NCBI RefSeq assembly: GCF_000372845.1
Contig: NZ_KB889964.1
Coordinates: 124,001 to 188,000, forward strand
Origin: Methylocystis rosea SV97
GTDB lineage: Bacteria; Pseudomonadota; Alphaproteobacteria; Rhizobiales; Beijerinckiaceae
Length of the DNA stretch: 64,000 nucleotides
Direction: 5' to 3'
A program made the translations under genes and the position numbers. The notes below the pieces were generated by a model, which worked only from the letters and a program-made list of their open reading frames with translations, did not search any database and had not been told where the DNA came from. Shown here one piece after another: positions 3,433 through 44,345 of the stretch. Each line of letters begins with the position of its first letter. The first letter of the stretch is position 1.

Positions 3433-3852
3433 GCCGCCTTTTGACCGGCCGATGGCCTGGCTCGAAGTCCCCCTTTTGCGCCCTGTCCGTGACGGTGAAC
3501 CTTGACGATGGTGGCGTCGACCATGGCGTATTCCATGTCGGGTTCGTCGCAGACGGCGTCAAACAGCCGTTTCCAGACATCCGCCTTCACCCAGTCGCGG
3601 AACCGTGTGAACACGCTGTTCCAATGCCCGAATGCGCGCGGCAGATCACGCCACGGACTGCCGGTGCGAGCAATCCACAACACCGCCTCCACGAACAAAC
3701 GGTTGTTGTTGCCGCTGCGGCCGGGATCGCCCTGTTTGCCAAGACAAAAGGGCTCCATCTTCGCCCATTGGGCGTCAGTCAAAACGAATCGGTTCATCAA
3801 AAGCTTGAATTACAGCCAAGCTCAGATGAGAATCCCAAATCCCAACAAACCC
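3058..3852 (-). mobile_element. IS5-family element (IS427-like) with CTAG target
   Basis: The element begins GGGCCTGTCGG at 3058 and ends with the imperfect inverse (CAAACCC) at 3852. CTAG is present at both ends (3055-3058 and 3852-3855), the target pattern typical of the IS427 group. It carries a two-frame transposase on the minus strand. It has interrupted a small gene whose 5' end remains at 3853-3882. Confidence 0.75.
3429..3800 (-). CDS. IS5-family transposase, OrfA
   Basis: The first frame (123 residues) starts MNRFVLTDAQWAKMEPF and contains the N-terminal transposase region and the first DDE aspartate (YAMVDATIVKVHRHGQGAKGG). The open frame ends just after GLRARPSAGQKAA and overlaps the second frame by four bases. 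In IS427-type elements the two parts are joined by programmed frameshifting, so this is probably a functional arrangement rather than decay. Confidence 0.85.
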   Translation of the reverse strand: MMNRFVLTDAQWAKMEPFCLGKQGDPGRSGNNNRLFVEAVLWIARTGSPWRDLPRAFGHWNSVFTRFRDWVKADVWKRLFDAVCDEPDMEYAMVDATIVKVHRHGQGAKGGLRARPSAGQKAA

Positions 3853-10680: not shown

Positions 10681-11540
10681 CGACGACGAGGACGACGCTC
10701 GTAGGCCGCTGCCAGTGGTGCTGAAGCCGGTCGACGACGAGCTGCTCTCGTCGTGGTTGGCGAGGCACGCGGCCTACTATGGGGTGTCGAAGCCGTTTTT
10801 CGCCAAATGGCTGATGCTCGGCACGCGCAACCTCTCGCTTCTCGACCATCGGCTGGGGTTGACACAGGTCGCGCGCCTATCTGAAAAACTCCGATGCGAT
10901 CCGATCGCGCTCATCGCGATGACGTTCATTGATACGCCAGCACGATCCGCCGAATTAATCTGCCGCAACCGAGCGCCGCAAATTTGCCGGCCCTGCGCCG
11001 ATCGGCACGCGCGCGATAGCGCATCCGGCGCGGTCCCAAAGCATTGGCGAAAAGCTTGGCGGGTCGCCTGCCCTGCTTGCGGCGCGCCTTTGTCGGACAC
11101 GAACGAGCGGCCCGATACCGGCGGAACATTGTGCGACACCAGCCCATTCGCGGATGTGTGGAAAGAAGTTGTTGCCGGCGAGGCGGTCATCGAACGTTCC
11201 TTCACGGCAACAGCTCGTTCGACTATTCCCCGGTCGCGCTCATGCGCGCGCTACTCGTGCAGACCCGGCGCCCTCCCGGCGCGAATGATCGCGACCCCGC
11301 TGTCGGCTGGACGCTTAACACGATCTTTCCCGAATTCGACGAGCTTGCACGGCCTATCAAGCGCAGGATCCACCATGCCGCCGTTGCAGCTCTTCCGATC
11401 CCATTCCGTCCGGCGCTCTTGGCGGCGTTTCGCGAACGATCGCCAATCCCGCAATCCTCTATGTTGTTTGGGAGGAGACAACGCTCCGGGGGCGAATAGC
11501 GTTCGAACGCCTATGCGAACAGCCAGGCTTGAAGCTCAAG
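10676..11540 (+). pseudogene. TniQ-family transposition protein, frameshifted
   Basis: The ATG at 10676 overlaps the end of tniB. The frame gives PLPVVLKPVDDELLSSWLARH, then AAYYGVSKPFFAKWL, followed by zinc-ribbon cysteines (CRNRAPQICRPCADRH; CPACGAPLSDT), all TniQ features. Near 11190 the frame shifts, and IS66 is inserted at 11541 with an 8-base duplication. An intact paralogue lies at 52741. Confidence 0.78.
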
Positions 11541-11553
11541 GTAAGCGCTGTTT

Positions 11554-13083
11554 TCAGGCCACGTCTTTGAGAGCGACCGGCTGCGCGTAGGCCCATGGCA
11601 TGAGCTCGTCGATCTTGCTCGCGAGATGTCCGTCGATCTTCGCGAGGACATCGGCCATATAGGCCATCGGATCGACGCCGTTCAGTTTGCAGGTCTCGAT
11701 GAGCGACGCGACGATCGCCCAGTTCTCGGCCCCGCCGTCGGAGCCGGCGAAGAGCGCGTTCTTGCGATTGAGCGCGATGGGGCGGATCGCGCGCTCGACG
11801 ATGTTCGAGTCGATCTCGATGCGCCCGTCGTCGATGAAGCGCGTCAGGCCGTCCCAGCGCGAGAGCGCGTAGCGGATCGCCTCGGCGAGCTTGGTCTTCT
11901 GGCTGATCAGCGCGAGCTTTTCACGCAGCCATGGCTCGAGGGCGTCGAGGATGGGGCGGGATTTTTCCTGTCGCGCCGCGCGCCGATCATCCGGGCTCCG
12001 ACCTTTGATGTCGCTCTCGATGGCGTAGAGCGCGCCGATGCGCGCCAGCGCCTCGCTGGCGATCGGCGCAGGACCTGCCGCGGCGAGTTCGTAAAAGCGC
12101 CGGCGAACGTGAGACCAGCAGAAGGCGAGCGACACGCTGTTCTTCTGCGCCAGCGCGCGATAGCCGGCGTAACCGTCGACCTGCACGACACCCGTGAAGC
12201 CGGCAATGTGCGTGAGCGGCTGCTCGGACTTTCGGTTTTGCGCATAGACATAGACGGCGATCGGCGGATCGGCGCCGCCCCATGGCCGGTCGTCGCGCGC
12301 ATAAGCCCAAAGTTGGCCGGTCTTGGTGCGCCCGCGCCCGGGGTCGAGCACCGGCGCCCTTGTCTCGTCGGCGAAGATTTTTGTCGACGACCTGATGTGT
12401 TCCAGAAGCCGCTCATGCACGGGCCGCAAATGCCAGGCGGCGCGGCCAACCCAGTCGGCGAGCGTCGAACGGTCGAGGGCGATCCCCTGCCGGGCGTAAA
12501 TCTGGGCCTGGCGATACAGCGGAAGATGATCGGCGTATTTGGAGACGAGCACATGGGCGACGGTCGCCTCGGTCGGCAGTCCGCCTTCGATCAACCGCGC
12601 CGGGGCCGGCGCCTGCACGATTGCGCCCTCGCAGGCGCGACAGCCGTATTTGGGACGCCGCGTCACCAGCACGCGGAACTGCGCCGGGACGACGTCGAGC
12701 CGCTCGGAGACATCCTCGCCGATCCGGTGGAGCGCGCCCTTGCAGCAGGGACAGGCCTTCTCGTCGATGTCGACGATGGTTTCGATGCGCGGCAGATGCG
12801 CCGGCAGCGCGCCACGGTTCGTGCGGCGCTTTCTGGCCGCCTTCTCGCGTTCGGCGGCGGATTTTGCTTCCGTCGCCGCCGCCGCGCCGGCTTCCGTCTG
12901 CTCGACCTCTTCGAGCGCGAGCAGCATCTGGTCTTCGGGAAGCGTTTCGGCGCGCCGTCCGAAGCGATGGCGCTGCATCTCCTTGATGATCTGAACGAGG
13001 CGCTCGTTGCGCGCCCGCTCGGCGAGGAGCATCGCCTTCAGTTCGTTCGGATCGTCGGGAAGCGTCTCGATCGCCTGCGCCAT
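11554..13083 (-). CDS. tnpC: IS66 transposase TnpC
   Basis: The protein has 509 residues, full length for the family. It has an N-terminal coiled coil and leucine-zipper-like region (residues 10-80), a zinc-binding motif (ACPCCKGALHRIGEDVSERLD and YGCRACEG), and the DDE core: KIFADETRAPVLDPGRG, VVQVDGYAGYRALAQ and the glutamate in DSNIVERAIRPIALNRKNALF. It is the catalytic protein of the element. The sequence is uninterrupted, so the copy may be active. Confidence 0.95.
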   Translation of the reverse strand: MAQAIETLPDDPNELKAMLLAERARNERLVQIIKEMQRHRFGRRAETLPEDQMLLALEEVEQTEAGAAAATEAKSAAEREKAARKRRTNRGALPAHLPRIETIVDIDEKACPCCKGALHRIGEDVSERLDVVPAQFRVLVTRRPKYGCRACEGAIVQAPAPARLIEGGLPTEATVAHVLVSKYADHLPLYRQAQIYARQGIALDRSTLADWVGRAAWHLRPVHERLLEHIRSSTKIFADETRAPVLDPGRGRTKTGQLWAYARDDRPWGGADPPIAVYVYAQNRKSEQPLTHIAGFTGVVQVDGYAGYRALAQKNSVSLAFCWSHVRRRFYELAAAGPAPIASEALARIGALYAIESDIKGRSPDDRRAARQEKSRPILDALEPWLREKLALISQKTKLAEAIRYALSRWDGLTRFIDDGRIEIDSNIVERAIRPIALNRKNALFAGSDGGAENWAIVASLIETCKLNGVDPMAYMADVLAKIDGHLASKIDELMPWAYAQPVALKDVA

Positions 13084-13150
13084 AAACGCAGAAGACCATA
13101 TTTTCCGCCGTCTTTCGACGCTCTTCGACGCCCTGATTCACTGTGTCGCA

Positions 13151-13507
13151 TCATCCCGGCAAGGTCGGCGCCGACGTCTCCTTCGCGCCGTGGACGCGGC
13201 GCCAGTCGAGCCCCTCGAGCAGCGCCGAAAATTGCGCCGCCGACAATCGCATGACGCCGTCATCGATCTTGGGCCAGCGGAACTCGCCGTCCTCCAGTCG
13301 CTTGGCGAAGAGGCATACGCCCGTGCCGTCCCAGAACACGAGTTTAACCCGATCCGCGCGCTTGGCGCGGAAAACGTAAATCGCGCCGTCGAAGGGATCG
13401 GCCTGCATCGTCTCGCGCACCAGCGCCGCGAGACCCTCCGCGCCCTTACGGAAGTCGACGGGCTTCGTCGCCACCATGACGCGAACCGCGCCCGTCGGGC
13501 CGATCAC
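13151..13507 (-). CDS. tnpB: IS66 accessory protein TnpB
   Basis: This 118-residue protein has the TnpB/IS66 Orf2 signature (VRVMVATKPVDFRKGAEGLAA, ADPFDGAIYVFRAKRADRVK, LVFWDGTGVCLFAKRLEDGEF). It is required with TnpA and TnpC for transposition; its exact role is unclear. It overlaps tnpA by four bases. It differs from the other copy by one residue (Val instead of Ala in DDG[V/A]MRLSA). Confidence 0.93.
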   Translation of the reverse strand: MIGPTGAVRVMVATKPVDFRKGAEGLAALVRETMQADPFDGAIYVFRAKRADRVKLVFWDGTGVCLFAKRLEDGEFRWPKIDDGVMRLSAAQFSALLEGLDWRRVHGAKETSAPTLPG

Positions 13508-13953
13508 TTTGCGCCTGGCGAGGTTCGCAAGGCGTGCAGGATCGCCGTTGCCATGCCGATGTCCGCATCACGCCAGATCCACACATGCGCCTCGCCGATC
13601 TCGATCTCCACGACGGGAGCGGCGGGCTCCGCCTTCGGCCCACGCGCCGCCGCGTGCACAGCGGTGACGGCGTTCTCCGCAATTGCCGGAACAAATGGCG
13701 GGGCGCCCGCCGCCTCTGCCCTCCGGCGCGCCTCCCTTCGCCAGGTGAACAGTTGCTGTGGCGTAGCGCCATGTCGACGCGCGACCTGCGAGACGACCGC
13801 GTCAGGAGCCAGCGACTCTTCGACTGCCAGCGCCTTCTCCCCTTCGGACCACCGGCGCCGCCCGCCAGCTCCAGTGATCACCTCGATGCGCCGTAACCCG
13901 GAGCCGTTCGGCTCAATCGAAGGATCAAGTCTAGACACGAGCCTTATCTCCAA
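13504..13953 (-). CDS. tnpA: IS66 accessory protein TnpA
   Basis: This 149-residue DNA-binding protein starts MEIRLVSRLDPSIEPN and has a transposase-8-type helix-turn-helix (RRRWSEGEKALAVEESL, VSQVARRHGATPQQLFTWRR). It is the first gene of the element operon and overlaps tnpB (ATGA). Confidence 0.9.
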   Translation of the reverse strand: MEIRLVSRLDPSIEPNGSGLRRIEVITGAGGRRRWSEGEKALAVEESLAPDAVVSQVARRHGATPQQLFTWRREARRRAEAAGAPPFVPAIAENAVTAVHAAARGPKAEPAAPVVEIEIGEAHVWIWRDADIGMATAILHALRTSPGAK

Positions 13954-14016
13954 ATCAGGAGATCAGACTCGCCGCTTTCATCTCGCGTTTGAAGGTGGGG
14001 CCGTAACAGCGCTTAC

Positions 14017-14130
14017 AGCTCAAGCAACGAGGCAAAGCCATTAAACGTGAGGATATGACCTTCAATATTCTCACGTTCAATGGCTTCTTCGATTCGGAAT
14101 CGGATTCTCAAGCCAAGATGGCTCCCGACA
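14017..14130 (+). repeat. Right end of the TniB/TniQ-type transposon
   Basis: After the IS66 duplication the sequence resumes the 3' end of tniQ and then runs through two related blocks, ATATTCTCACGTTCAATGGC (14065-14084) and ATTCTCAAGCCAAGATGGCT (14104-14123), ending CTCCCGACA at 14130. Read inward this end starts TGTCGGGAGCCATCTTGGCT, matching the ends at 9736, 9999 and 53659. The repeated blocks are probably transposase-binding sites. Confidence 0.65.
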
Positions 14131-14437
14131 AGCAGTTCGCGCGCCTGCGAAGGCATTTGGCGGCTCCAGTCGCGCAACGTATTTTCCGCATATTTTCCGT
14201 ATGCGGCGTTCGTGCGACATTTCATATCACTCAAGCTATTGAATTTATTGGCGTGCCCCGGTCGACGAAGATGGGCAATATTGCTTTGCTGCGGCGCTAT
14301 GACCGGGCGCGCTTCTGTGCGGCAATTTTTCTGCCGCGCGATCGGCGCGCCGATTCCGCTCCTTTTCCGATCGGCCAGCATTCGTTTCGAGGGTTCGCGT
14401 TCAGGTCGTTTTTCTGGAGCGTGCGCCGCACAAGCGG
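14131..14437. other. Intergenic, no feature seen
   Basis: About 300 bases between the transposon end and the stop of the mandelate-racemase-like gene. Neither strand shows a recognisable gene, hairpin with T-run or repeat. Confidence 0.5.
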
Positions 14438-15541
14438 TCAGTCCCTGACTCCAATAGCAGCTTCATCCCAATCAAGTCCTACTCCGGCGACAGCGGGTAT
14501 ATGCAACATGCCGTCCACGACCTCATAGGGCTGCTTAAGGATTGGATTGACCCAATTCTGCCACTCAAGCCAATGCGACGTTTCTGAAACCCGCATAACG
14601 TGGGCGCCGACCTCTGGATAGAGGTGCGTAGAAATGGGCGCCCCGAACGCCGCCGCAATGGCTGCCGATTTTAGCCAGCCGGTTACGCCGCCGATCCTCA
14701 TGAAGTCTGGCATTACGAGGTCGCATGCCTTCATTTGAAGCGCACGGTGCAGATCCCGATGACCGTAGAAATTTTCTCCTATCTGCAACGGCGTTTTCAG
14801 TTGCGAAGCGAGGCGCGCATATCCATCCAGATTGTCGTAAACGATGGGTTCCTCGATCCAATCCAGGCCCAAGCTGTCGACCGATTGGCATCTCACGAGC
14901 GCTTCAGCAAGATCGAGCCCTTGATTGAAATCCGCCATCAAATGAACATCGGGGCCACCTGCAGCGCGCACCGCCTCGATAGCGCGCAAATCCTGATCTG
15001 CGGTTGCGCGGCCTAGCCGGATTTTCAGTCCGGCGAATCCTCCTTCTTGGATGAGTCTCGCTGCTTCCTCCCCTAATTGCGCTGGATCAGTCAGCCAAAG
15101 ACCGTTGCTGTTATATGCCTTCACCGGCCCAACCGTGCCTCCGAGGAGCACGCACAAGGGTAGATTCGCGGCCTTCGCCAAGGCGTCCCACGCCGCTATA
15201 TCGAGGCCCGAAACGGCGATCATACTCAAGCCCTGGTAGCCAACGAAATGGAGAGACTTGCGGGTTAGCTCGAATATCTCGGTCGGCGCGACGGCATGAC
15301 CATCGACAAGCTCGCCAAAATCCTCCAAGGCGGCAACGATATATTTCATCGCCTTTGCCGTGTACGGTTCGAGGTAGCTGCGCCCAACGATTCCTTCGTT
15401 TGTGAACAGATCGATGAGGATCACAGGCCAGTCGGAGATCGTCGCTATTCTGGCCACGATCGGGCGTTCCAATTTGAGCAGCAAGGGCCGAGCCCTGATG
15501 CTTTTGATTGTCAGTCGGCCAATTGTCATTCCAAGACTCAC
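14438..15541 (-). CDS. Enolase-superfamily enzyme close to mandelate racemase
   Basis: The 367-residue protein aligns along its length with mandelate racemase. Metal ligands are visible as D204 (MADFNQG), E230 (WIEEP) and E256 (IGENF); the D279-H306 dyad (VMPDFMRIGG; STHLYPE) and E326 (HWLEW) are also present. The usual second catalytic lysine of the KxK motif is replaced: the motif reads K173-I-R175. This suggests racemase activity may be changed to epimerase, dehydratase or one-sided chemistry. The substrate should be a carboxylate. The start is a GTG overlapping the tautomerase stop; an ATG four codons later is possible. It is the last gene of the pxm transcription unit as inferred from orientation and spacing. 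Confidence 0.85.
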   Translation of the reverse strand: MSLGMTIGRLTIKSIRARPLLLKLERPIVARIATISDWPVILIDLFTNEGIVGRSYLEPYTAKAMKYIVAALEDFGELVDGHAVAPTEIFELTRKSLHFVGYQGLSMIAVSGLDIAAWDALAKAANLPLCVLLGGTVGPVKAYNSNGLWLTDPAQLGEEAARLIQEGGFAGLKIRLGRATADQDLRAIEAVRAAGGPDVHLMADFNQGLDLAEALVRCQSVDSLGLDWIEEPIVYDNLDGYARLASQLKTPLQIGENFYGHRDLHRALQMKACDLVMPDFMRIGGVTGWLKSAAIAAAFGAPISTHLYPEVGAHVMRVSETSHWLEWQNWVNPILKQPYEVVDGMLHIPAVAGVGLDWDEAAIGVRD

Positions 15542-15924
15542 ATATCAGCGTATTGCGCTTCGCCGTTCCCGAACGACCAGTTCTCCTTGGGAACCTCGAC
15601 GAGGCTGATGAAAACGTCCTCAACGCGAAGTCCCAGGCGGGAATGAAGTTCTTTCGTCACCGCACGATAAAAAGATTTCTTCTGCTCGACCGACCTACCT
15701 GCATTGAGCGTGATCTGGATGAACACGCAGTCCTGCGTGCGTTTGATTCCAAGGTAATTCTCGTCGGCAATGAGGGAGTGTTCTGGATGTTCGGCGATCA
15801 CCTGGAAGCGATCGTCCTTTGGAACCTTCAAGACCTCGGTCATCGCGTGATAGACGACATCGCCGATGCCGCGACAATATTCGAAAGGTTTGCCTTCGAT
15901 GAGATCGATACGCACGAGAGGCAT
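15538..15924 (-). CDS. Tautomerase-family protein (4-oxalocrotonate tautomerase-like)
   Basis: The start at 15924 puts proline directly after the initiator Met (MPLVRIDLIEGKP); this N-terminal Pro is the catalytic base of tautomerases, and an AGGAG site precedes the ATG. The protein has 128 residues, the size of the double-length tautomerase_3/MIF-like group rather than the 62-residue 4-OT. Visible family features are TEVLKVPKDDRFQVIAEH and CVFIQITLNAGRSVEQKKSFY. It would catalyse keto-enol isomerisation of a 2-oxo or unsaturated acid. It follows pxmC by 115 bases on the same strand and overlaps the racemase-like gene, so the three may be cotranscribed. Confidence 0.85.
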   Translation of the reverse strand: MPLVRIDLIEGKPFEYCRGIGDVVYHAMTEVLKVPKDDRFQVIAEHPEHSLIADENYLGIKRTQDCVFIQITLNAGRSVEQKKSFYRAVTKELHSRLGLRVEDVFISLVEVPKENWSFGNGEAQYADM

Positions 15925-16039
15925 TTGAGCTCTCCTATTTTGGGCGATGCGGATCGGGCGCAGCTTCAGTACGGATCGCTCTAGAAAACGGGCGCCCCGA
16001 GGTTCGTGGGGACGCACGCACGCGCTGCAGGCGCCTTTG

Positions 16040-16816
16040 TCAGGCCGCGTCCTCGATCTGGTCCAACAGTTGAATGAGACGCATCACCTGTTGCAGCAAA
16101 ATTCCGCCGACACCAAGAGCAAACCACACGCCAGTGACGAAACCCCAGTGAATCGGCGCAGCGAAGAACTCCTCCCGAAACCAGAAGGTATGGCCCCACT
16201 CGTTAAATCCCACACTAACGAAGATCATGAACGGACCGACGACCGCAAGCGTCAGAGGGAGGGAAATCCCCTCGGCGTAAAGCGGCAGGCGCGTCCTCGC
16301 GTACAGCCACGCCGAGCCGCCCATCAGGATGTAGAAGGGAAAGTTGAAGTAGAACTCGATGATGTGGTTGGCGGTGAAAGGCGTGTCGCGGACGGAAACC
16401 TGATGCCAGGAATTGTCCTGCTCCGCAAAATAGCTGCCGGCCCAATAAACGGCGAATGTGTAGATACTGATCCACATCGTCAGCGTGAAGTAGCGCGTAA
16501 TCTCCTCCTTTGGCGTAATCTTGTCGAGGTTTCGGTCCCGGGTGAACCAAACATAGCCCCACAGCGTCGGAAACACGATCAACAGAAATGCACCTTCGAG
16601 GTAGAGCAATCGCATCCAATGAACGTCGAACGCGGGATCGGAAGAATCTAGGCCGGTCGAAATAGCATAAGCGCCCTGATACATCCTAAAGCCGACGTAG
16701 ATGACGGTCATCACGCCGAAGGTCAGGAGATATTTCGGTAGGTCTCTCAGATACCAGGGCAGATTGAAAGGCGCTTGCGGGGTGGATTGGGAGATGGTTT
16801 GCGCGGTGGTGCTCAT
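16040..16816 (-). CDS. pxmC: pXMO subunit C (PmoC/AmoC family)
   Basis: The 258-residue membrane protein belongs to the PmoC family. The copper-site ligands proposed for pMMO are all kept: D134 and H138 in EQDNSWH, and H151 in TANHIIEF. The strongly conserved block (VGFNEWGHTFWFREEFFAAPIHWGF) is present. About six membrane spans are predicted. It is the third gene of the operon, 69 bases after pxmB. Placement of C last distinguishes this locus from pmoCAB and identifies pxmABC. It is the subunit suspected to hold the oxygen-activating copper. Confidence 0.93.
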   Translation of the reverse strand: MSTTAQTISQSTPQAPFNLPWYLRDLPKYLLTFGVMTVIYVGFRMYQGAYAISTGLDSSDPAFDVHWMRLLYLEGAFLLIVFPTLWGYVWFTRDRNLDKITPKEEITRYFTLTMWISIYTFAVYWAGSYFAEQDNSWHQVSVRDTPFTANHIIEFYFNFPFYILMGGSAWLYARTRLPLYAEGISLPLTLAVVGPFMIFVSVGFNEWGHTFWFREEFFAAPIHWGFVTGVWFALGVGGILLQQVMRLIQLLDQIEDAA

Positions 16817-16885
16817 GGCCGCTCCTTTGGTTGGCTTGGAGTGTTTTCACGCGGGCGACGCTCTTCGCCCGGCTGCGCGAGATTG

Positions 16886-18121
16886 TCAGTAGAATTTCGG
16901 GATAACCGGAGCGGACACGCTGGAGACATAGCGTCGGCCCGCGTTGTCATAGAGGAAGAGTAAGCCTCCCATCCGCGTATCCGCGTCGCGGATCAGGCCA
17001 TCGAGCCTCTCCCGCTGCCAAAGCGAATCCTCGGCCGTGATGCGGATCGTTCTCGTCTCGCCCGGCGCAATGGGATCGGCCGTGTCGATGCTCAGCCCTT
17101 CGCGTGCAGCCAAAGCGGCGCCCTCGTCCTGTGGCGGCTGGACAACCGCGGGGTTAAGGAAGCGCACATTCGCGGTCGCGAACTCGCCAACCCGGACGGG
17201 ATGGTCGGAGCCGTTATGAAGCAGCGCGGTCATGATCATTGCTCGAGCAGGCACATTGTATTCGGCGCGCTGAATCTTGACCTGCACCGCTCCGACGTCG
17301 ACGGCGGGCGGAAGCGGATCGATCTGATCCATTGCGGCTTGCAGAGGGATGGCGTTTGGATATTTTAGATCCGTTACGAAGTTCGCGCCGAATACGATCA
17401 TCGGAACTGCGAAGATGATCGCCGCGCCAATCTTCCGGTCGAGCGTGGAGATAAGGCTCGTCTCTTGGCCGGCATGCAGCAATTTATAGCGTGGAATAAA
17501 CAGCGGACGCCTGACCCACCACAGTAGCCACGCCGAACCGAGCGCGATCCAGAAGCCGTGCCAGGCGACGCCATTCGCGAGCCCGTATGTCTCCATGTCG
17601 ATCACGCTGCCATCGAGCGTCTTGATCTGGTTAGTGAATGCGGAGGCATCGCCCTCGACTTCCATCCATTGGCCCGGGCCCACGACGGAGCCCGCATCAT
17701 GCAGGTTGATGAACGGATGCAGATGGAACCGACCAGGGATCCTGGCCTTCATCACGATCTTGAAGTCATAGTCGCCGCCGAGTTTCAAAGCGGAGGAGCT
17801 GACGGACGATTGTCCGTTGAGGTAACGCTTGGTTCGAATAAAGACGGGCCCCGGAGCGGAGACATTCAGATAGGTCGCGTCCGGTTGCGCCACCCCGCGC
17901 GGCCAGTCCGCGTTGACGTGGAACTTACCGGTGATGACAACCTCTTCATTGACATTGAGCTTTGCCTTCGACCACGCCACATCGTACCATTGGATCGTAC
18001 GCATACGTACGAAAGGTTCCAGGGCCTTTTCGCCATGGGCGAGCGCTGCTTCGGGAGCAAGCGCTCCGGCGCATAATCCGAGGTAAACGGCACTGAAAAG
18101 AGACTTGAGCGACTTTTTCAT
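16886..18121 (-). CDS. pxmB: pXMO subunit B (PmoB/AmoB family)
   Basis: The protein has 411 residues with a signal peptide cleaved before H29 (EAALA-HGEKALEP), giving the N-terminal histidine ligand of the CuB site. The other ligands are H133 and H135 (RFHLHPFINLHDAG); H68 corresponds to a bis-His position of pMMO (GKFHVNADWP). Two membrane spans (around residues 188-206 and 232-252) separate two cupredoxin-like periplasmic domains. The start is 15 bases after pxmA with a GGGAGAG site. All copper ligands are intact, so the enzyme is likely functional. Confidence 0.95.
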   Translation of the reverse strand: MKKSLKSLFSAVYLGLCAGALAPEAALAHGEKALEPFVRMRTIQWYDVAWSKAKLNVNEEVVITGKFHVNADWPRGVAQPDATYLNVSAPGPVFIRTKRYLNGQSSVSSSALKLGGDYDFKIVMKARIPGRFHLHPFINLHDAGSVVGPGQWMEVEGDASAFTNQIKTLDGSVIDMETYGLANGVAWHGFWIALGSAWLLWWVRRPLFIPRYKLLHAGQETSLISTLDRKIGAAIIFAVPMIVFGANFVTDLKYPNAIPLQAAMDQIDPLPPAVDVGAVQVKIQRAEYNVPARAMIMTALLHNGSDHPVRVGEFATANVRFLNPAVVQPPQDEGAALAAREGLSIDTADPIAPGETRTIRITAEDSLWQRERLDGLIRDADTRMGGLLFLYDNAGRRYVSSVSAPVIPKFY

Positions 18122-18136
18122 CTCGTTGTCTCTCCC

Positions 18137-18889
18137 TCAGATATTCTTGACGTACTTTGTCGTCGCAAATGCTTTTCCCAGATACCACCAGAGCGGATAC
18201 ATCAGGGTGCAAAGCAGCGCCGAACAAAACGCCGACAACGGCGTTGCATATTGGCCGTAGGTTCGCAGCGTTCCACGCTCGATGATGCGAAGATATTCAG
18301 GCGTCCCCGCGCGGATGTATTGAAAGCCGAAGAGATCGGCCACGGTGAGCTGCGCGCCGCCATACTCCACCGGCACGTGAAACATGCCGAAAATCGGCCA
18401 GTTGGTCGGATAGAAAAGCAGGGCGAACGCCATGCCGCCAAAGATGCTCGTGACAGTCAGACTGTTGCTCAACATCAGAATCGCGTCGAGGACGAGGGCG
18501 CTCGGCAACATCGTGGCTGGCAAGACTTCGTTTATCGGGAAAAAGTTCCACATGTGATAGGCGAAGAAGCGCGTGATCCATGTGCCGATCAGCAAGCATG
18601 AAATGCAAAGCGTCGCGCCAAGCGGCAACCTGAAATTTGGCCAAAGCACGGCCTGTACCGCCGCGGGGAAGGTAATCATCATCAGGGGAGTGATAAGCGG
18701 CCACCATTGCCGATCCTTCCAGTCTTGCCAGAAGTCCCAGTCGCCGACAGTCAGAGCAACATGCAAGTGGAAGGAGCCAATGAAAAGGAATAACGCGAGC
18801 ACCAGGATCAGATAGTCATAAGCGCGGCTCAGTCTCGACTTTTCCCCTGTATAGGGCCGTGCTGGAATATCTAGGGATTTGCCAGTCAT
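18137..18889 (-). CDS. pxmA: pXMO subunit A (PmoA/AmoA family)
   Basis: The 250-residue integral membrane protein carries the PmoA/AmoA marker region GDWDFWQDWKDRQWWP (residues 49-64), then LPLGATLCISCLLIG, FFPINEVLPATMLPSAL, LLFYPTNWPIFGMFHVPVEY, GTPEYLRIIERGTLRTYG and ends TTKYVKNI. The start at 18889 has a GGAGG site 5 bases upstream; an in-frame extension to 19042 is rejected. It is the first gene of pxmABC, divergent from the LysR gene. In gammaproteobacterial methanotrophs pxm is induced under hypoxia with nitrite, but its substrate is not settled. Confidence 0.94.
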   Translation of the reverse strand: MTGKSLDIPARPYTGEKSRLSRAYDYLILVLALFLFIGSFHLHVALTVGDWDFWQDWKDRQWWPLITPLMMITFPAAVQAVLWPNFRLPLGATLCISCLLIGTWITRFFAYHMWNFFPINEVLPATMLPSALVLDAILMLSNSLTVTSIFGGMAFALLFYPTNWPIFGMFHVPVEYGGAQLTVADLFGFQYIRAGTPEYLRIIERGTLRTYGQYATPLSAFCSALLCTLMYPLWWYLGKAFATTKYVKNI

Positions 18890-19023
18890 GCGGTCCTCCA
18901 CGAAGGTTGGCTCTCTGTGCGGCTCTTTCCCGAGCGGCGGCCAGAATGGCGAACGACGAGACGGCGCAACTTTCGGGAAGCTATGCGAGGCTAGGCTCTG
19001 CGTGAAATGGCGAGTTTTGATAG

Positions 19024-19046
19024 GCCTATGAATAAAAATCACAGGC
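19024..19046. promoter_or_regulatory. Candidate LysR operator between pxmA and lysR
   Basis: The sequence GCCTATGA-ATAAAAA-TCACAGGC is an imperfect dyad (7 of 8 positions) that contains a T-N11-A core (T19029 to A19041), the pattern bound by LysR-type regulators. It lies 42 bases before the regulator start and about 135 bases before the pxmA start, in the only divergent promoter region of the locus. Function is inferred. Confidence 0.5.
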
Positions 19047-19088
19047 GCACATCGTCGGGCTGGGCAAGAGAGGTGATGAGGCTAAACG

Positions 19089-20012
19089 GTGACTGAACTG
19101 CATAATTTTGATCTCAACCTGCTCGTGGCGTTTGATCTCCTCATGGAGGAGAAGAACGTCTCGCGCGCCGCCGTACGCCTGTTCGTTACGCAGTCGGCGA
19201 TGAGCCATACCTTGCAGCGGCTCAGACAACAGTTGGACGATCCACTACTCGTCAAGACCCCGGGAGGCATGAAGCCGACAGAGCGCGCGCTGTCGCTGGT
19301 CGACCCGGTGAAGGCCCTACTACGCGACATCAAGCGGCTGATCCGTGCGCCGGAAGAATTCGATCCTGCACAAAGCAGGCGACGGTTTGTGATCGCCGCA
19401 ACCGATTACATGGACCTGCTGGTGCTCCCTCCGCTCGTCGAGCGCATTGCGCTGGGCGCTCCGGGCATCGACATCCATGTCAAGAGAACCGAGTTGCCCT
19501 TTCCCGAAGCGGATCTTGAGCACAATGATCTCGATGTCGTGCTGGGCTTCGATGCGATACTGAAGCCGCCTGCCTATTTGAGCAGAACGAAACTTTTTGA
19601 AGACCGCATGGCCTGCGTCGTCTGCAGGCAGCATACGGTCGGCAAAAGCGGTCGGCTAACGCTTGAGGAATATGTCTCGCGCAAGCACATGTTGATCTCC
19701 CGTACCGGCACACGCGTTGGACTAATCGACGAGTGGCTCGCCGAGAGAGGGCTGGCGCGCCGTATCGCGTTGATCGTGCCCCACTTCCTCTCGGCCCCCT
19801 TCATTGTGGCGAAGACCGATATGATCTTGTCCCTGCCGGAGCGGATCGCCCTTGACTTTATCGGCCTTGCCCCGCTGAAAATTGTGCCCATCCCGATCGA
19901 ATTGCCGGCCTATGACCTCGTCATGGTCTGGCACCCGCTCCATGATCTCGACCCCGCCCATCGCTGGTTGCGTGATCAAATCGTCGAAGTTTCCCGGAAC
20001 CTGCGTGTTTAG
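19089..20012 (+). CDS. LysR-family transcriptional regulator divergent from pxmABC
   Basis: The 307-residue protein has the LysR winged helix-turn-helix at residues 7-66 (FDLNLLVAFDLLMEEKNVSR, AAVRLFVTQSAMSHTLQRLRQQ) and a PBP2-type effector domain from about 90 to the end. It resembles the NodD/NahR-like branch in having FDLNLLV at the start and IDIHVKRT in the effector domain; that subgroup often responds to aromatic or small organic compounds. It is transcribed away from pxmA with about 200 bases between, the usual layout for a regulator and its target. Confidence 0.88.
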   Translation: MTELHNFDLNLLVAFDLLMEEKNVSRAAVRLFVTQSAMSHTLQRLRQQLDDPLLVKTPGGMKPTERALSLVDPVKALLRDIKRLIRAPEEFDPAQSRRRFVIAATDYMDLLVLPPLVERIALGAPGIDIHVKRTELPFPEADLEHNDLDVVLGFDAILKPPAYLSRTKLFEDRMACVVCRQHTVGKSGRLTLEEYVSRKHMLISRTGTRVGLIDEWLAERGLARRIALIVPHFLSAPFIVAKTDMILSLPERIALDFIGLAPLKIVPIPIELPAYDLVMVWHPLHDLDPAHRWLRDQIVEVSRNLRV

Positions 20013-20060: not shown

Positions 20061-21158
20061 TCATCTGCCCGCGAGTCCGGGGGCCATCGCTTTGACGTCG
20101 ATGAGGAAATACGGCGGCTTCGACAATAACTCTCCGCCGTTTAGAACAGCGGATTTGTGCAAGCGATTGACGACGGTATAGAGCTTGCCTCCCGGCCCAA
20201 AACTGAGAGAGTCGACCCAGGATAACTCTTCGTTTTGTGCGACTCGCTGGTAACTGCGATCCCCCTTGATGACCCCGATCGCATTTTCTGCAAGATCGCC
20301 GAGGTAGATGTTATTGTCCCTGTCGATGCTAATGCCATCGCAAATGGGCTTAGCGCTATAGCGCTCAACCCGCGCACCAAGCTGCCTTTCGTCGAGAGCT
20401 TCATCGGCCGCATCAGCGGCCTTTATGCGGTAAAGGCTCGTTCCGTGCATAGGACCAAAATACACCCATTCGTTCTGCAGATCTTCTGTGATCGGATTGA
20501 CGCCGATATGGGGTCGCACGAGATAGCCGGCGGAGTCTTTCACCTGAATGGGGCGCCCATCGATGACGAGATCGATTTTCTCGGGCACAACGCTGGAATG
20601 ACCTTCCAACACGCGACGCGCGGCGCCCGTTTGCAAATCCACCACGATAATCGCTGCATTTGCTCCACCTGCGGGATCGGCGATGAATATCTTGTTGTGC
20701 TTGCCGTCGACGGTAAAATCGTTAACGAACGCATCTTTGGGCGCGATAGGCGGCGGCAAATAGATAACGCGGTGCAACTTGTCGGCCTTCGTATCCCAGC
20801 CGACGAGTTTTGGCGTGACTCCGCTGCGCAGGCCATTATCGAGCATCCAGACAACGCCGTTGGCGTCACTCCTAATGCCAAGAACAGAATCCAGCTTTAG
20901 CTCAGAATGGCTCAGCCGGTCATTGAACTCCTTGTTCGGAAAGGGCGCGAGAGAACCGTCGTCGCGATGCTCAACGACCGAGTAATTCGGTTCGTAGAAC
21001 TGATGCTGGCTCATGATAATTTTGCCACTCCCGGTGACCGTGACGTTGCCGGGCGCTTGCGCGAGCCTCGCTATGATTTCGTAGTTGGGCTGCTGCGCGG
21101 CTTCCGCTCGGCTCACAAAAACGGCCAGCATTGACAGGAGGATTAGGCTCGTTCGCAT
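20061..21158 (-). CDS. Secreted yellow/MRJP-family beta-propeller protein
   Basis: The start at 21158 (MRTSLILLSMLAVFVSRAEA) has a GGAG site and gives a signal peptide, so the 365-residue product is exported. Motifs of the major-royal-jelly/yellow family are seen: LGIRSDANGVVWMLDNG, VNDFTVDGKHNKIFIADP, YFGPMHGTSLYRI, CDGISIDRDNNIYLGDLAENAIGV and WVDSLSFGPGGKLYTVVNRL. These are six-bladed propellers related to SMP-30/gluconolactonases; bacterial members are poorly known. It converges with the LysR gene. A lactonase role is possible but unproven. Confidence 0.8.
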   Translation of the reverse strand: MRTSLILLSMLAVFVSRAEAAQQPNYEIIARLAQAPGNVTVTGSGKIIMSQHQFYEPNYSVVEHRDDGSLAPFPNKEFNDRLSHSELKLDSVLGIRSDANGVVWMLDNGLRSGVTPKLVGWDTKADKLHRVIYLPPPIAPKDAFVNDFTVDGKHNKIFIADPAGGANAAIIVVDLQTGAARRVLEGHSSVVPEKIDLVIDGRPIQVKDSAGYLVRPHIGVNPITEDLQNEWVYFGPMHGTSLYRIKAADAADEALDERQLGARVERYSAKPICDGISIDRDNNIYLGDLAENAIGVIKGDRSYQRVAQNEELSWVDSLSFGPGGKLYTVVNRLHKSAVLNGGELLSKPPYFLIDVKAMAPGLAGR

Positions 21159-21479
21159 GGGAACTCCGGGACGGCTTTGGACGCCGACGGATTCTATCCT
21201 GTCGAACGTTACTCGGCGCATGATGCTTGCTCATGGCGTCATTAATGGATTCGATACAAAGCACTGGGAAAGCGTGCTCCCTTGATCTTCGGCTCCGTGT
21301 CCACATGTGACCGGCGCCTAGGCCGAGGCGGCTCTGGCGTTGGTTGCGATCTTCCACCTTGGACTGTTTGTTGAGCCGATTTGCCGCGCTAAAAGGCATC
21401 GCCGCTGTGCATTTTAGTCCCGATCAGAAATCAATTCTGGGGATGCGCCGGCGACCAGTGGTTCGACGAGCGACTGCCC

Positions 21480-23182: not shown

Positions 23183-24868
<1,686 letters not shown>

Positions 24869-29983: not shown

Positions 29984-30629
29984 CCGGCGTTTATGCGAAC
30001 AGCAGCCCTTCTGGGGTGGGGTACGCCGCGGGACCGTAAAACTAACTGGGTTACGGCGGACGTTTACGATTTCCGACGCAAGAAATGGCCGACCCTGCGG
30101 AGGACGGCAATGCGCTGGAAGATCATGATTGAAGGCTTGGACGAATTCAGCGGATGCGGCACTGCTGAGATGGTAATCGAAAAGCCGTTCAATCGGCTGT
30201 CGGAGGGCGAACTCGGTTTTTCAATTTCGGATGGCAAGTCGATCATGGCGTTATTGCAGCAGCTTGTGGTGAAGCAGCAATGCGAGGCCTACGTCCTGAC
30301 GAGGCAGTATTGCACCGATTGCAAGACGTTCGGCGCATCAAGGATTATGGCAAGCGCAAGATCCGGACGGTCTATGGACGTGTCGAAGTCAGCAACCCGC
30401 GGATCATGAATTGTCGGCGCTGTCTTCCCTATTTTTGTGACGCTTCGGCCGTTTTGCGCGATATCTGCCCCGATCAGGCGACGCCGGAGTTGATGGAATT
30501 GTCGGCTCGCATGGGCAGCATGATGCCCTACCGAAAGGCAGCGGATGTGCTGGCGGAGTTTCTCCCGATCCCTTCAACGGAATCGTTCATGACCCTGCGT
30601 CACCGAACGATGAAACGTAAGCGCTGTTT

Positions 30630-32159
30630 TCAGGCCACGTCTTTGAGAGCGACCGGCTGCGCGTAGGCCCATGGCATGAGCTCGTCGATCTTGCTCGCGA
30701 GATGTCCGTCGATCTTCGCGAGGACATCGGCCATATAGGCCATCGGATCGACGCCGTTCAGTTTGCAGGTCTCGATGAGCGACGCGACGATCGCCCAGTT
30801 CTCGGCCCCGCCGTCGGAGCCGGCGAAGAGCGCGTTCTTGCGATTGAGCGCGATGGGGCGGATCGCGCGCTCGACGATGTTCGAGTCGATCTCGATGCGC
30901 CCGTCGTCGATGAAGCGCGTCAGGCCGTCCCAGCGCGAGAGCGCGTAGCGGATCGCCTCGGCGAGCTTGGTCTTCTGGCTGATCAGCGCGAGCTTTTCAC
31001 GCAGCCATGGCTCGAGGGCGTCGAGGATGGGGCGGGATTTTTCCTGTCGCGCCGCGCGCCGATCATCCGGGCTCCGACCTTTGATGTCGCTCTCGATGGC
31101 GTAGAGCGCGCCGATGCGCGCCAGCGCCTCGCTGGCGATCGGCGCAGGACCTGCCGCGGCGAGTTCGTAAAAGCGCCGGCGAACGTGAGACCAGCAGAAG
31201 GCGAGCGACACGCTGTTCTTCTGCGCCAGCGCGCGATAGCCGGCGTAACCGTCGACCTGCACGACACCCGTGAAGCCGGCAATGTGCGTGAGCGGCTGCT
31301 CGGACTTTCGGTTTTGCGCATAGACATAGACGGCGATCGGCGGATCGGCGCCGCCCCATGGCCGGTCGTCGCGCGCATAAGCCCAAAGTTGGCCGGTCTT
31401 GGTGCGCCCGCGCCCGGGGTCGAGCACCGGCGCCCTTGTCTCGTCGGCGAAGATTTTTGTCGACGACCTGATGTGTTCCAGAAGCCGCTCATGCACGGGC
31501 CGCAAATGCCAGGCGGCGCGGCCAACCCAGTCGGCGAGCGTCGAACGGTCGAGGGCGATCCCCTGCCGGGCGTAAATCTGGGCCTGGCGATACAGCGGAA
31601 GATGATCGGCGTATTTGGAGACGAGCACATGGGCGACGGTCGCCTCGGTCGGCAGTCCGCCTTCGATCAACCGCGCCGGGGCCGGCGCCTGCACGATTGC
31701 GCCCTCGCAGGCGCGACAGCCGTATTTGGGACGCCGCGTCACCAGCACGCGGAACTGCGCCGGGACGACGTCGAGCCGCTCGGAGACATCCTCGCCGATC
31801 CGGTGGAGCGCGCCCTTGCAGCAGGGACAGGCCTTCTCGTCGATGTCGACGATGGTTTCGATGCGCGGCAGATGCGCCGGCAGCGCGCCACGGTTCGTGC
31901 GGCGCTTTCTGGCCGCCTTCTCGCGTTCGGCGGCGGATTTTGCTTCCGTCGCCGCCGCCGCGCCGGCTTCCGTCTGCTCGACCTCTTCGAGCGCGAGCAG
32001 CATCTGGTCTTCGGGAAGCGTTTCGGCGCGCCGTCCGAAGCGATGGCGCTGCATCTCCTTGATGATCTGAACGAGGCGCTCGTTGCGCGCCCGCTCGGCG
32101 AGGAGCATCGCCTTCAGTTCGTTCGGATCGTCGGGAAGCGTCTCGATCGCCTGCGCCAT
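30630..32159 (-). CDS. tnpC: IS66 transposase TnpC (copy 2)
   Basis: Identical at the protein level to the 509-residue TnpC at 11554-13083, with intact zinc motif and DDE residues. Confidence 0.95.
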   Translation of the reverse strand: MAQAIETLPDDPNELKAMLLAERARNERLVQIIKEMQRHRFGRRAETLPEDQMLLALEEVEQTEAGAAAATEAKSAAEREKAARKRRTNRGALPAHLPRIETIVDIDEKACPCCKGALHRIGEDVSERLDVVPAQFRVLVTRRPKYGCRACEGAIVQAPAPARLIEGGLPTEATVAHVLVSKYADHLPLYRQAQIYARQGIALDRSTLADWVGRAAWHLRPVHERLLEHIRSSTKIFADETRAPVLDPGRGRTKTGQLWAYARDDRPWGGADPPIAVYVYAQNRKSEQPLTHIAGFTGVVQVDGYAGYRALAQKNSVSLAFCWSHVRRRFYELAAAGPAPIASEALARIGALYAIESDIKGRSPDDRRAARQEKSRPILDALEPWLREKLALISQKTKLAEAIRYALSRWDGLTRFIDDGRIEIDSNIVERAIRPIALNRKNALFAGSDGGAENWAIVASLIETCKLNGVDPMAYMADVLAKIDGHLASKIDELMPWAYAQPVALKDVA

Positions 32160-32226
32160 AAACGCAGAAGACCATATTTTCCGCCGTCTTTCGACGCTCT
32201 TCGACGCCCTGATTCACTGTGTCGCA

Positions 32227-32583
32227 TCATCCCGGCAAGGTCGGCGCCGACGTCTCCTTCGCGCCGTGGACGCGGCGCCAGTCGAGCCCCTCGAGCAGCG
32301 CCGAAAATTGCGCCGCCGACAATCGCATGGCGCCGTCATCGATCTTGGGCCAGCGGAACTCGCCGTCCTCCAGTCGCTTGGCGAAGAGGCATACGCCCGT
32401 GCCGTCCCAGAACACGAGTTTAACCCGATCCGCGCGCTTGGCGCGGAAAACGTAAATCGCGCCGTCGAAGGGATCGGCCTGCATCGTCTCGCGCACCAGC
32501 GCCGCGAGACCCTCCGCGCCCTTACGGAAGTCGACGGGCTTCGTCGCCACCATGACGCGAACCGCGCCCGTCGGGCCGATCAC
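32227..32583 (-). CDS. tnpB: IS66 accessory protein TnpB (copy 2)
   Basis: 118 residues, equal to the copy at 13151-13507 except Ala in place of Val in the DDG[A/V]MRLSA segment. It overlaps tnpA by four bases. Confidence 0.93.
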   Translation of the reverse strand: MIGPTGAVRVMVATKPVDFRKGAEGLAALVRETMQADPFDGAIYVFRAKRADRVKLVFWDGTGVCLFAKRLEDGEFRWPKIDDGAMRLSAAQFSALLEGLDWRRVHGAKETSAPTLPG

Positions 32584-33029
32584 TTTGCGCCTGGCGAGGT
32601 TCGCAAGGCGTGCAGGATCGCCGTTGCCATGCCGATGTCCGCATCACGCCAGATCCACACATGCGCCTCGCCGATCTCGATCTCCACGACGGGAGCGGCG
32701 GGCTCCGCCTTCGGCCCACGCGCCGCCGCGTGCACAGCGGTGACGGCGTTCTCCGCAATTGCCGGAACAAATGGCGGGGCGCCCGCCGCCTCTGCCCTCC
32801 GGCGCGCCTCCCTTCGCCAGGTGAACAGTTGCTGTGGCGTAGCGCCATGTCGACGCGCGACCTGCGAGACGACCGCGTCAGGAGCCAGCGACTCTTCGAC
32901 TGCCAGCGCCTTCTCCCCTTCGGACCACCGGCGCCGCCCGCCAGCTCCAGTGATCACCTCGATGCGCCGTAACCCGGAGCCGTTCGGCTCAATCGAAGGA
33001 TCAAGTCTAGACACGAGCCTTATCTCCAA
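32580..33029 (-). CDS. tnpA: IS66 accessory protein TnpA (copy 2)
   Basis: 149 residues, identical to the TnpA at 13504-13953. Confidence 0.9.
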   Translation of the reverse strand: MEIRLVSRLDPSIEPNGSGLRRIEVITGAGGRRRWSEGEKALAVEESLAPDAVVSQVARRHGATPQQLFTWRREARRRAEAAGAPPFVPAIAENAVTAVHAAARGPKAEPAAPVVEIEIGEAHVWIWRDADIGMATAILHALRTSPGAK

Positions 33030-33522
33030 ATCAGGAGATCAGACTCGCCGCTTTCATCTCGCGTTTGAAGGTGGGGCCGTAACAGCGCTTACGGATTAAA
33101 CTGGGTGAACCGCTGGATGAGAAGGCGCGCCAGCGCGCATGGTTCGACCCGCCATCATCATCCGAACACAAGCAATCTGAGCTCGATCTCCCCAACGATC
33201 CGGAGCGAGAATTTGTCGTGAGCATCGACACGGCGCATGTACGCTGCAGCCGGTCAGAAAAGGCACGGACATTTGAGATCGCTGTCGCCCGCTGCGGCTG
33301 TGGCCGGCGAGGCTCGCCGCCCGGTCACTACTTTGCGACAGCGGACATGTCGAAGCACGAATTGCGATCACGGGCGCTTCAAGCGCTCCAACACGAAGAT
33401 ACGTTGGGCGAGGCGAAGTGACCGCAATCTCCGACGGGGCCGAGATCATGAAAAGGCTTCGAAGGGTCGCCGTCAAGCCGCGAGGATTCGGAGTTGTAGA
33501 CGATCGGCCACCGTGAGGGGCG

Positions 33523-37424: not shown

Positions 37425-37868
37425 CCTTCCTTGCGCCGTCAGAAGCGGCATCGTAATTGATCTAGGCGTCCTTTGCGCAAGGTCGATCGTCGTTGCTCAC
37501 TCGGCAATACGGCCGCCCCGCTTCCAGAAATGGCGGTTCCTTCAGTCACGGCCTCGACACCATTGGCTGCGGAGGCTCCCGCTCGACCGATGTCGTCGTG
37601 TATCGTCGCTCGAAAAGATCAACAACGCAAAGTTTAACGGCGGAACTGCAAGTCACTGGATGCGGTCCGCCATTTTGCTCGACGGTTTATGAGGGGCGCG
37701 GACTCCTTGGATGATATCACGCCGATGAGACCTTCCGCGCCTCGTACTTTTGCCTAAGGAACACGGCCCGACAGCAAATCGATGGTCGGACCGTTCCATT
37801 ATTGTCGACGACAATTACCGTACGTCAGCTTCGCATCGAATATGCGTTCAATCACGAAGCTCTCTCCA
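37425..37868. other. Spacer between small His-rich gene and copper ATPase gene
   Basis: No gene is recognised. It probably holds a separate promoter for the ATPase gene, but no clear CueR-type or CopY-type operator is visible. Confidence 0.35.
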
Positions 37869-38081
37869 TCAGCGACAGACCCACACCCATTTTCCATGAT
37901 GGCGGTGCCAGCACACATTATGTCTGTGTTGGCCAGGAGTGCTCCAATCACGATGCATGTGACGGCCATGCCCGCCGGGGACCATTCCGTGAGTCTGCGG
38001 GTCGTGCTCCTGGAGCTCTTGGGCCATCGCGGGAACGGATAGGGCCAGCATCGTCGCTAAGGCAATAGAGAGTCTAAGCAT
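37869..38081 (-). CDS. Small secreted His-rich protein, likely metal-binding
   Basis: The 70-residue protein begins with a signal peptide (MLRLSIALATMLALSVPAMA). The 50-residue mature part has nine or more histidines and two cysteines (DPQTHGMVPGGHGRHMHRD, QHRHNVCWHRHHGKWVWVC). It lies 36 bases after cusA on the same strand. By composition and context it should bind copper or silver in the periplasm, but no named family is recognised. Confidence 0.65.
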   Translation of the reverse strand: MLRLSIALATMLALSVPAMAQELQEHDPQTHGMVPGGHGRHMHRDWSTPGQHRHNVCWHRHHGKWVWVCR

Positions 38082-38117
38082 TAGTCTTTCCTCCTGTGAA
38101 GATTGTTGTGCATTGTT

Positions 38118-43944: not shown

Positions 43945-44345
43945 GGCGCCACCTTTAGAATTAGCCGGCTCTGGAGCGTGCCGCTCTCGCCCTGCACCTT
44001 TGCAGCGAGCGATATCCGCCACGTTCCCGCATCAGTCAGATCGACCTGGAAGCGATAAACTCCGGGATCGGGGCTTGGCGCCGGTTCGATCATGCTGGTC
44101 ATCGACTCCATGCCATCTGGAGCCATGTCGAGACGCGTCGCGAAGATCACCGCGTTCGGCGCCGGCTTGTCGTCGGGCTTATGGACGAGACTCACCGATA
44201 CGATCGCTTGCCCCGTCTTGAATTGCGCTTCGACGAGTCGGAATTCGTAGTCGTTGATGTTGGCGCGAGCGCGCGGCGCTGAGCTCAAGATGGCAACCGC
44301 GACCAGCGCGAATAAGCGCGCCTTGCCCGAGGTCACGAGCATCAT
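43941..44345 (-). CDS. FixH/YtkA-like secreted protein
   Basis: The ATG at 44345 has GGAG 8 bases upstream and opens a 134-residue protein with a signal peptide. The mature part is one beta-rich domain of FixH/YtkA type (EFRLVEAQFKTGQAIVSVSL, DPGVYRFQVDLTDAGTWRIS, LAAKVQGESGTLQSRLIL). Such domains are common at the head of heavy-metal RND operons. It probably acts in the periplasm; its function is not established. Confidence 0.75.
   Translation of the reverse strand: MMLVTSGKARLFALVAVAILSSAPRARANINDYEFRLVEAQFKTGQAIVSVSLVHKPDDKPAPNAVIFATRLDMAPDGMESMTSMIEPAPSPDPGVYRFQVDLTDAGTWRISLAAKVQGESGTLQSRLILKVAP

Follow-up and report, generated by a model that had tools for sequence, protein, structure and literature searches.

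A putative LysR regulon around pxmABC, with tautomerase and enolase-superfamily genes, in Methylocystis rosea SV97

We examined the genes around pxmABC, which encodes a copper membrane monooxygenase (CuMMO), in a stretch of 64,000 nucleotides from Methylocystis rosea SV97 (contig NZ_KB889964.1, positions 124,001 to 188,000; hereafter the window). The genome (3.9 Mb) is assembled in two contigs, and the window is part of the one of 365 kb (C2). The genome holds five more pmoC-type matches (42 per cent identity) and one short one, and on these grounds we regard the host as a methanotroph. Pfam profiles matched all five genes that the original prediction had placed in one direction, in the predicted order pxmA, pxmB, pxmC, tautomerase and enolase; the shared strand is the minus strand (Table 1). 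The intergenic gaps are 15 bases between pxmA and pxmB, 69 between pxmB and pxmC, and 115 between pxmC and the tautomerase gene, the last being exactly the length predicted. The claimed overlap of the tautomerase and enolase genes holds, at 4 bases, if the latter starts at the GTG at 15541, and gives way to an 8-base gap if it starts at the ATG at 15529; the open reading frames (ORFs) of several homologues start at the position of this fifth codon. The right end of the predicted span has to be moved. It was drawn from an over-extended pxmA ORF that runs to 19042, and the ATG at 18889 is the likely start, giving 250 amino acids, as many as in the annotated Methylomagnum copy.

The window has all three CuMMO subunit families in the order A-B-C. 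Residues of the copper sites in subunits B and C align with those of solved methane monooxygenase chains (3rgb for B, 7ev9 for C). In a tree with 22 of the gammaproteobacterial loci, the window's PxmA falls inside the Pxm clade, separate from pmoA and amoA; the Pxm rows stand on one side, together with the second copies of Methyloglobulus (support 97/87). Alphaproteobacterial PxmA sequences form a single clade (100/97) nested among gammaproteobacterial Pxm, with two sequences from metagenome-assembled genomes (MAGs) as nearest outgroups and the Methylomagnum plasmid copy next. This topology fits a transfer of pxm from gammaproteobacteria to alphaproteobacteria, an origin also argued for the M. 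rosea genes in an earlier study (PMC6215863).

From 196 confirmed matches to a PxmA alignment we retained the 80 best; 52 of these (L055-L106) have at least 68 per cent identity to PxmA. Near-identical loci are counted separately unless stated, and our ORF picker missed pxmA in four loci (L053, L064, L080, L084) where it was visible in other views. Where at least 1.5 kb of upstream sequence is available, a divergent LysR gene adjoins pxm in 43 of 46 loci. Among the 41 loci with at least 2.6 kb, 39 have a gene of the major royal jelly protein (MRJP) family within 10 kb. Both linkages span gammaproteobacterial and alphaproteobacterial loci; in L103 the two genes are found downstream of pxm. Among 39 genomes of the window's genus, MRJP is present in eight, all of them pxm carriers, and whole-genome searches found it once each in eight gammaproteobacterial pxm genomes. 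The window's LysR protein combines helix-turn-helix and substrate domains with a divergent target and an AT-N11-AT box between the genes. Its MRJP protein scores 65.8 bits against PF03022 (cut-off 19.8) and has an N-terminus that, judged by eye, resembles a signal peptide; it is likely secreted.

Other neighbours vary. In gammaproteobacteria a major facilitator superfamily (MFS) transporter usually follows pxmC (a family of 34 members among 59 sources), and in three loci the MFS protein comes closest to models of L-lactate and oxalate/formate transporters, each time with a score under the cut-off. On the Methylomagnum plasmid the order is pxmABC, MFS and glutathione S-transferase. Some pxm loci carry short-chain dehydrogenase/reductase (SDR), quinone-oxidoreductase-like, HxlR, isochorismatase, DUF1993 or peroxidase-related genes. 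In two further loci, one from a MAG (L107) and one from Methyloglobulus morosus (L108), a second pxm-like operon has an MRJP relative directly upstream of its pxmA and in the same direction; next to this relative, a TetR gene takes the place of LysR. The link between MRJP and pxm seems to outlast a change of regulator.

The regions between lysR and pxmA share a DNA box of the form ATnAA-N7-CATTTnA. This form or a close variant was present in all 47 usable regions, namely those of loci with a clean lysR-pxmA region, and the strict pattern matched 46 of them, whereas Markov-resampled regions matched it in 0.02 of 47 cases on average. A weight matrix was then built solely from the lysR-pxmA sites (29 distinct) and applied elsewhere with a threshold score of at least 9. 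Sites passing it lay upstream of MRJP, near its start, in 37 of the 47 loci (21 distinct sites), versus 7 of 612 other ORFs from the same loci, which were picked mechanically and are in part spurious. The box accompanies MRJP even where that gene is kilobases away or inverted (L093, L094, L100, L101, L102). The strict form was matched 18 times across 11 whole genomes. Thirteen of these matches lie at pxm or MRJP, and the four Methylocystis genomes had one match each, at pxm; the pxm sites of G563 and G564 are not picked up by it. The reversed control pattern also gave 18 matches in the 11 genomes, 17 of them in G564 alone. The window has a strong pxmA box and a decayed MRJP box, and in the alphaproteobacterial branch regulation of the MRJP arm may have drifted. 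In L063 the box is intact (score 32) though no LysR or MRJP gene was found within 10 kb upstream. These patterns suggest a dedicated LysR regulon that would join pxmABC and MRJP through a common putative box.

The pairing of pxm with the two downstream genes was followed in 12 alphaproteobacterial loci that extend past pxmC (the window, L046, L047, L049-L054, L058, L187 and L188); L058 comes from a MAG binned as Methylocapsa and the other 11 from the window's genus. A tautomerase gene follows pxmC in all 12, with an in-frame stop in L052, and an enolase gene is present in 11 of 12, split in L047 and missing from L051, where a different MFS gene stands in its place. Both exceptional loci belong to one genome, G150, which has L052 on contig C1 and L051 on C3. 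PxmA with at least 88 per cent identity was found in 8 of the 39 genomes of the genus, and a ninth pxm genome (G174, 59 per cent complete) has a contig that begins inside pxmC. The PF14552 tautomerase family occurs in exactly these nine genomes and in none of the 30 without pxm; G150 has a third copy, with no pxm genes seen in the stretch examined. Linkage is kept even as the tautomerases of the linked alphaproteobacterial loci diverge down to 44 per cent identity. In broader samples of the class, 17 of 385 genomes had a close relative of the enolase (E 1e-100) and 17 of 385 had one of the tautomerase (E 1e-28); the first enolase and PxmC samples held just five further genomes of the genus.

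We also considered that the tautomerase and enolase genes had arrived as a ready-made module, and rejected this: no matching tautomerase was found in 12 loci of enolase relatives with 57-68 per cent identity, two of which are short (3.2 and 9 kb). Ten ORFs near these relatives were compared with Pfam; eight matched, with no shared theme. A wider survey found a tautomerase in 8 of the 29 pxm loci with at least 4.9 kb downstream from pxmA and in four more on shorter stretches. Seven of these 12 are gammaproteobacterial; six of the gammaproteobacterial copies lie behind the MFS gene (L068, L073, L075, L081, L086, L092), and that of L096 lies behind MRJP, i.e. in the other arm of the regulon. L081, from the laboratory methanotroph Methylomonas sp. 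LW13, has LysR and MRJP as well. In the tautomerase tree, from which L204 was left out (internal stop) and in which the L052 row was cut at its stop, gammaproteobacterial pxm copies form one clade (99/97) and the main alphaproteobacterial ones another (90/95), beside non-pxm proteins. The tautomerase of G149 (L053) groups with a non-pxm protein (100/100), and the Pxm of the same genome sits inside the alphaproteobacterial clade. Ten pxm-linked enolases form one clade (100/96), with the position of the G149 enolase left unresolved by the tree. On these trees tautomerases entered the pxm locus at least twice. Nothing speaks more clearly for a functional link than the fact that one regulon acquired the same type of enzyme more than once.

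Taken together, the comparisons argue that the pairing is not accidental and that the five genes are inherited together as a unit. A neighbourhood search had been proposed, with absence of the pairing from every other pxm locus as an outcome that would have spoken against it; the pairing recurs. The idea that the five genes serve one pathway is partly supported by this and by the absence of a consensus terminator in the gap after pxmC. As a description of the unit, the original prediction captured the core pairing, while the more conserved partners, LysR and MRJP, lie just outside its span. On present comparisons LysR and MRJP would be the fixed partners of pxm, with the tautomerase and enolase genes as an exchangeable finishing module.

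On the coding strand of the 115-base gap no consensus terminator was called, nor did the gap contain a LysR box or a consensus promoter; it does contain a GC-rich hairpin, which could attenuate transcription. Over positions 13500-20000 as a whole, no sigma-70-like promoter was called (0 sites, 2.6 expected), and terminator-like sites numbered 11, with 6.7 expected. We dropped the hairpin as a proven RNA element, its covariation being no better than in shuffles. The cells of the hairpin are paired in 94 per cent of cases, compared with 32-53 per cent in slid versions; the window's gap shows no folding advantage over shuffles (z -0.21), and the stronger folding z-scores of three relatives come from hand-picked stretches. 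GC-rich hairpins lacking a long T run lie between pxmC and the tautomerase gene in several loci (the window at 15925-16039, L052, L053), where they possibly act in attenuation or mRNA processing.

Many members of the tautomerase and enolase superfamilies act on carboxylic acids. The window's tautomerase matches FG41 malonate semialdehyde decarboxylase (MSAD; 3mjz), its nearest solved protein, over the whole length and shares Pro1, Asp37 and Arg76 with it in an alignment whose positions were counted by hand. It differs at position 73, which is Asn in the window protein and Gln in FG41; the other MSAD type has Arg there. Although its FG41-type residues are present, we do not class the protein as a malonate semialdehyde decarboxylase, and such an activity is a prediction only. 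The enolase-family protein is nearest to 3ugv, an enolase-superfamily protein whose entry title gives no function, and then to mandelate racemase (E 2.8e-82). The features of the mandelate racemase subgroup are present, with three acidic metal ligands, a His-Asp pair and a C-terminal Glu all aligning with those of 3ugv and mandelate racemase. It differs from the racemase in carrying KxR (KIR in the window) instead of KxK, and we therefore rejected mandelate racemase as its identity. KxR is found in all 11 pxm-linked rows, among which L055 (a split gene) deviates at HWLE and L058 is gapped at IEEP. Reading a substrate from family names was also rejected, the NCBIfam matches of the tautomerase, enolase and MFS proteins being below curated cut-offs.

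Table 1. Features of the pxm locus, with positions in the window
Feature	Positions	Strand	Evidence and remarks
Enolase-superfamily gene, mandelate-racemase-like subgroup	14438..15541, likely start 15529	-	PF13378 E 6.4e-51, PF02746 E 6.4e-14; 3ugv E 6.6e-158; active-site motifs
Tautomerase-superfamily gene, 128 aa	15538..15924	-	PF14552 E 1.9e-33; nearest solved 3mjz E 4.1e-25
pxmC-tautomerase gap, 115 bases	15925..16039	-	GC-rich hairpin; no LysR box, no consensus terminator
pxmC, CuMMO subunit C, 258 aa	16040..16816	-	PF04896 E 2.1e-90; Asp-His-His and Asn-His-His sites align with 7ev9
pxmB, CuMMO subunit B, 411 aa	16886..18121	-	PF04744 E 1.9e-153; copper-site histidines align with 3rgb
pxmA, CuMMO subunit A, 250 aa	18137..18889	-	PF02461 E 1.1e-117; Pxm clade in tree
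Conserved box ATCAAAACTCGCCATTTCAC between lysR and pxmA	19002..19021	-	Putative site; the pattern's sole match genome-wide
Second conserved half-palindrome TGATTTTTATTCATA, immediately before the box	19027..19041	-	Seen in the site listing, no score of its own
LysR-type regulator, divergent	19089..20012	+	PF00126 and PF03466
MRJP-family gene	20061..21221, likely start 21158	-	PF03022; nearest solved 2qe8 E 1.1e-117
Decayed box counterpart upstream of MRJP	21214..21235	-	Matrix score -9, under any threshold

We lean towards a reading in which a LysR regulator of its own governs a small mobile regulon, centred on pxmABC, for an oxidation that yields organic acids. The linkage of lysR, pxmABC and MRJP, the box, the added tautomerase and enolase genes and the conserved copper ligands all point this way. 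The LysR regulator would sense an organic inducer and switch on the pxm and MRJP arms. Oxidation by Pxm would then take place on the periplasmic side of the membrane, where the MRJP protein, if secreted as is likely, may bind or convert the product. An organic acid would next enter the cytoplasm, a step for which the gammaproteobacterial MFS transporter is suitably placed, and there the tautomerase and the mandelate-racemase-like enzyme might isomerize, dehydrate or decarboxylate it. A more specific version, which we put forward tentatively and rate somewhat below even odds, makes Pxm the first step of an inducible, LysR-run pathway from periplasm to cytoplasm for an organic compound other than methane, with MRJP near-obligatory and the modules fitted to the local product. 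In that case methanotrophs regarded as C1 specialists would harbour a conserved and mobile route for another kind of compound.

Several observations pull the other way. A tautomerase is present at just 8 of the 29 loci with enough downstream sequence (and the four shorter ones), the enolase was seen in alphaproteobacterial loci only, related tautomerases also occur near LysR and MFS genes away from pxm, and a hairpin stands in the 115-base gap. The MRJP box is decayed in the window and in most of its genus; it reaches a score of 9 in just two of nine alphaproteobacterial loci (L054 and L058) and scores -9 in the window, L046 and L049. L063 and L106 have neither LysR nor MRJP in the stretch examined. 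The family names of the tautomerase, enolase and MFS proteins are all under the NCBIfam cut-offs noted above.

Some of these points would suit a view of the tautomerase and enolase genes as passengers, or as a separately transcribed unit, beside a transferred pxm locus with which they share no pathway. The hairpin, the restriction of the enolase to alphaproteobacteria, its loss from L051, the interrupted tautomerase of L052 and the frequency of such tautomerases near LysR and MFS genes all agree with it. We consider it improbable, given linkage at 12 of 12 and 11 of 12 loci despite tautomerase divergence, separate recruitments into the same regulon, a gap with neither LysR box nor consensus promoter, and the absence of the tautomerase family from the 30 genomes of the genus without pxm and of a matching tautomerase from the 12 enolase-relative loci. 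A stronger competitor, with a fair chance though less likely than our preferred reading, is that Pxm oxidizes methane as an alternative monooxygenase under hypoxia with nitrite, that LysR senses this state and that the partners handle side products or stress. The complete copper sites of the window's Pxm agree with this, and the SDR, quinone-oxidoreductase-like, HxlR, isochorismatase, DUF1993 and peroxidase-related genes of some loci would suit stress. One expression study (PMC4594100) found a 19.8-fold increase of pxmA transcript with nitrite at 72 h in M. album BG8, a result that also counts against our preferred reading in that it fits either, and one of about 10-fold for pxmABC under denitrifying conditions in M. 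denitrificans. The same study reports pxmA three orders of magnitude below pmoA and no rise under hypoxia alone (PMC4594100). The box, moreover, looks dedicated, unlike that of a general stress regulon, with 13 of its 18 matches in 11 genomes at pxm or MRJP, and the excerpts of the literature examined held no direct methane assay of Pxm.

The founding paper on pxm is reportedly Tavormina 2011. Excerpts of papers from 2015 to 2025 call the function or substrate of Pxm unknown or unelucidated, and we found no description of a pxm neighbourhood with tautomerase, LysR or MRJP (royal jelly) in the literature searched. What appears to be new here is a conserved LysR, box and MRJP regulon around pxm with recurring, putatively acid-handling enzymes. 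A mutant of Methylobacter tundripaludum 21/22 for the metabolite tundrenone shows a joint drop in genes 3483 to 3486, which the paper names PxmABC (PMC6977074); the four numbers would accommodate pxmABC and one adjacent gene. A regulator with a defined box, a near-universal partner and recurring product-handling enzymes make the function of Pxm testable. Should Pxm act on something other than methane, pxm genes ought to be left out when methane-oxidation potential is assessed. A genome study of 2025 assigns PxmABC the methane monooxygenase Enzyme Commission number (PMC12810054).

Farther out, two direct copies of an insertion sequence of 2479 bases (IS66-like by eye; 11538-14016 and 30614-33092; 99.9 per cent identical) flank the cassette. 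We dropped a composite transposon as an explanation: an 8-base target duplication belongs to the left copy by itself, so that it reads as a simple insertion. No target duplication is visible at the right copy. Also on this replicon are a gene resembling GroEL (by eye), genes for a chromate transporter and a metal-type P-type ATPase, and a resistance-nodulation-division (RND) efflux system (23237-24868; 291-1730; 35160-44022).

Among known systems, the closest is pxmABC (pXMO) of gammaproteobacterial methanotrophs, which shares the A-B-C order and tree clade, 80-85 per cent PxmA identity to most listed copies, and LysR, MRJP and the box. The alphaproteobacterial loci differ in having the tautomerase and enolase genes straight after pxmC, whereas most gammaproteobacterial loci have the MFS gene there, with a tautomerase behind it in some. 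PMO3 (pmoCAB3) of Methylacidiphilum, described as an acetone monooxygenase (PMC8630023), differs in its C-A-B order, its partner enzymes and its verrucomicrobial host, and in having a substrate established by physiology. The likeness is that of a divergent CuMMO clustered with enzymes for its product: PMO3 is encoded, and co-expressed, with the enzymes of its pathway (PMC8630023).

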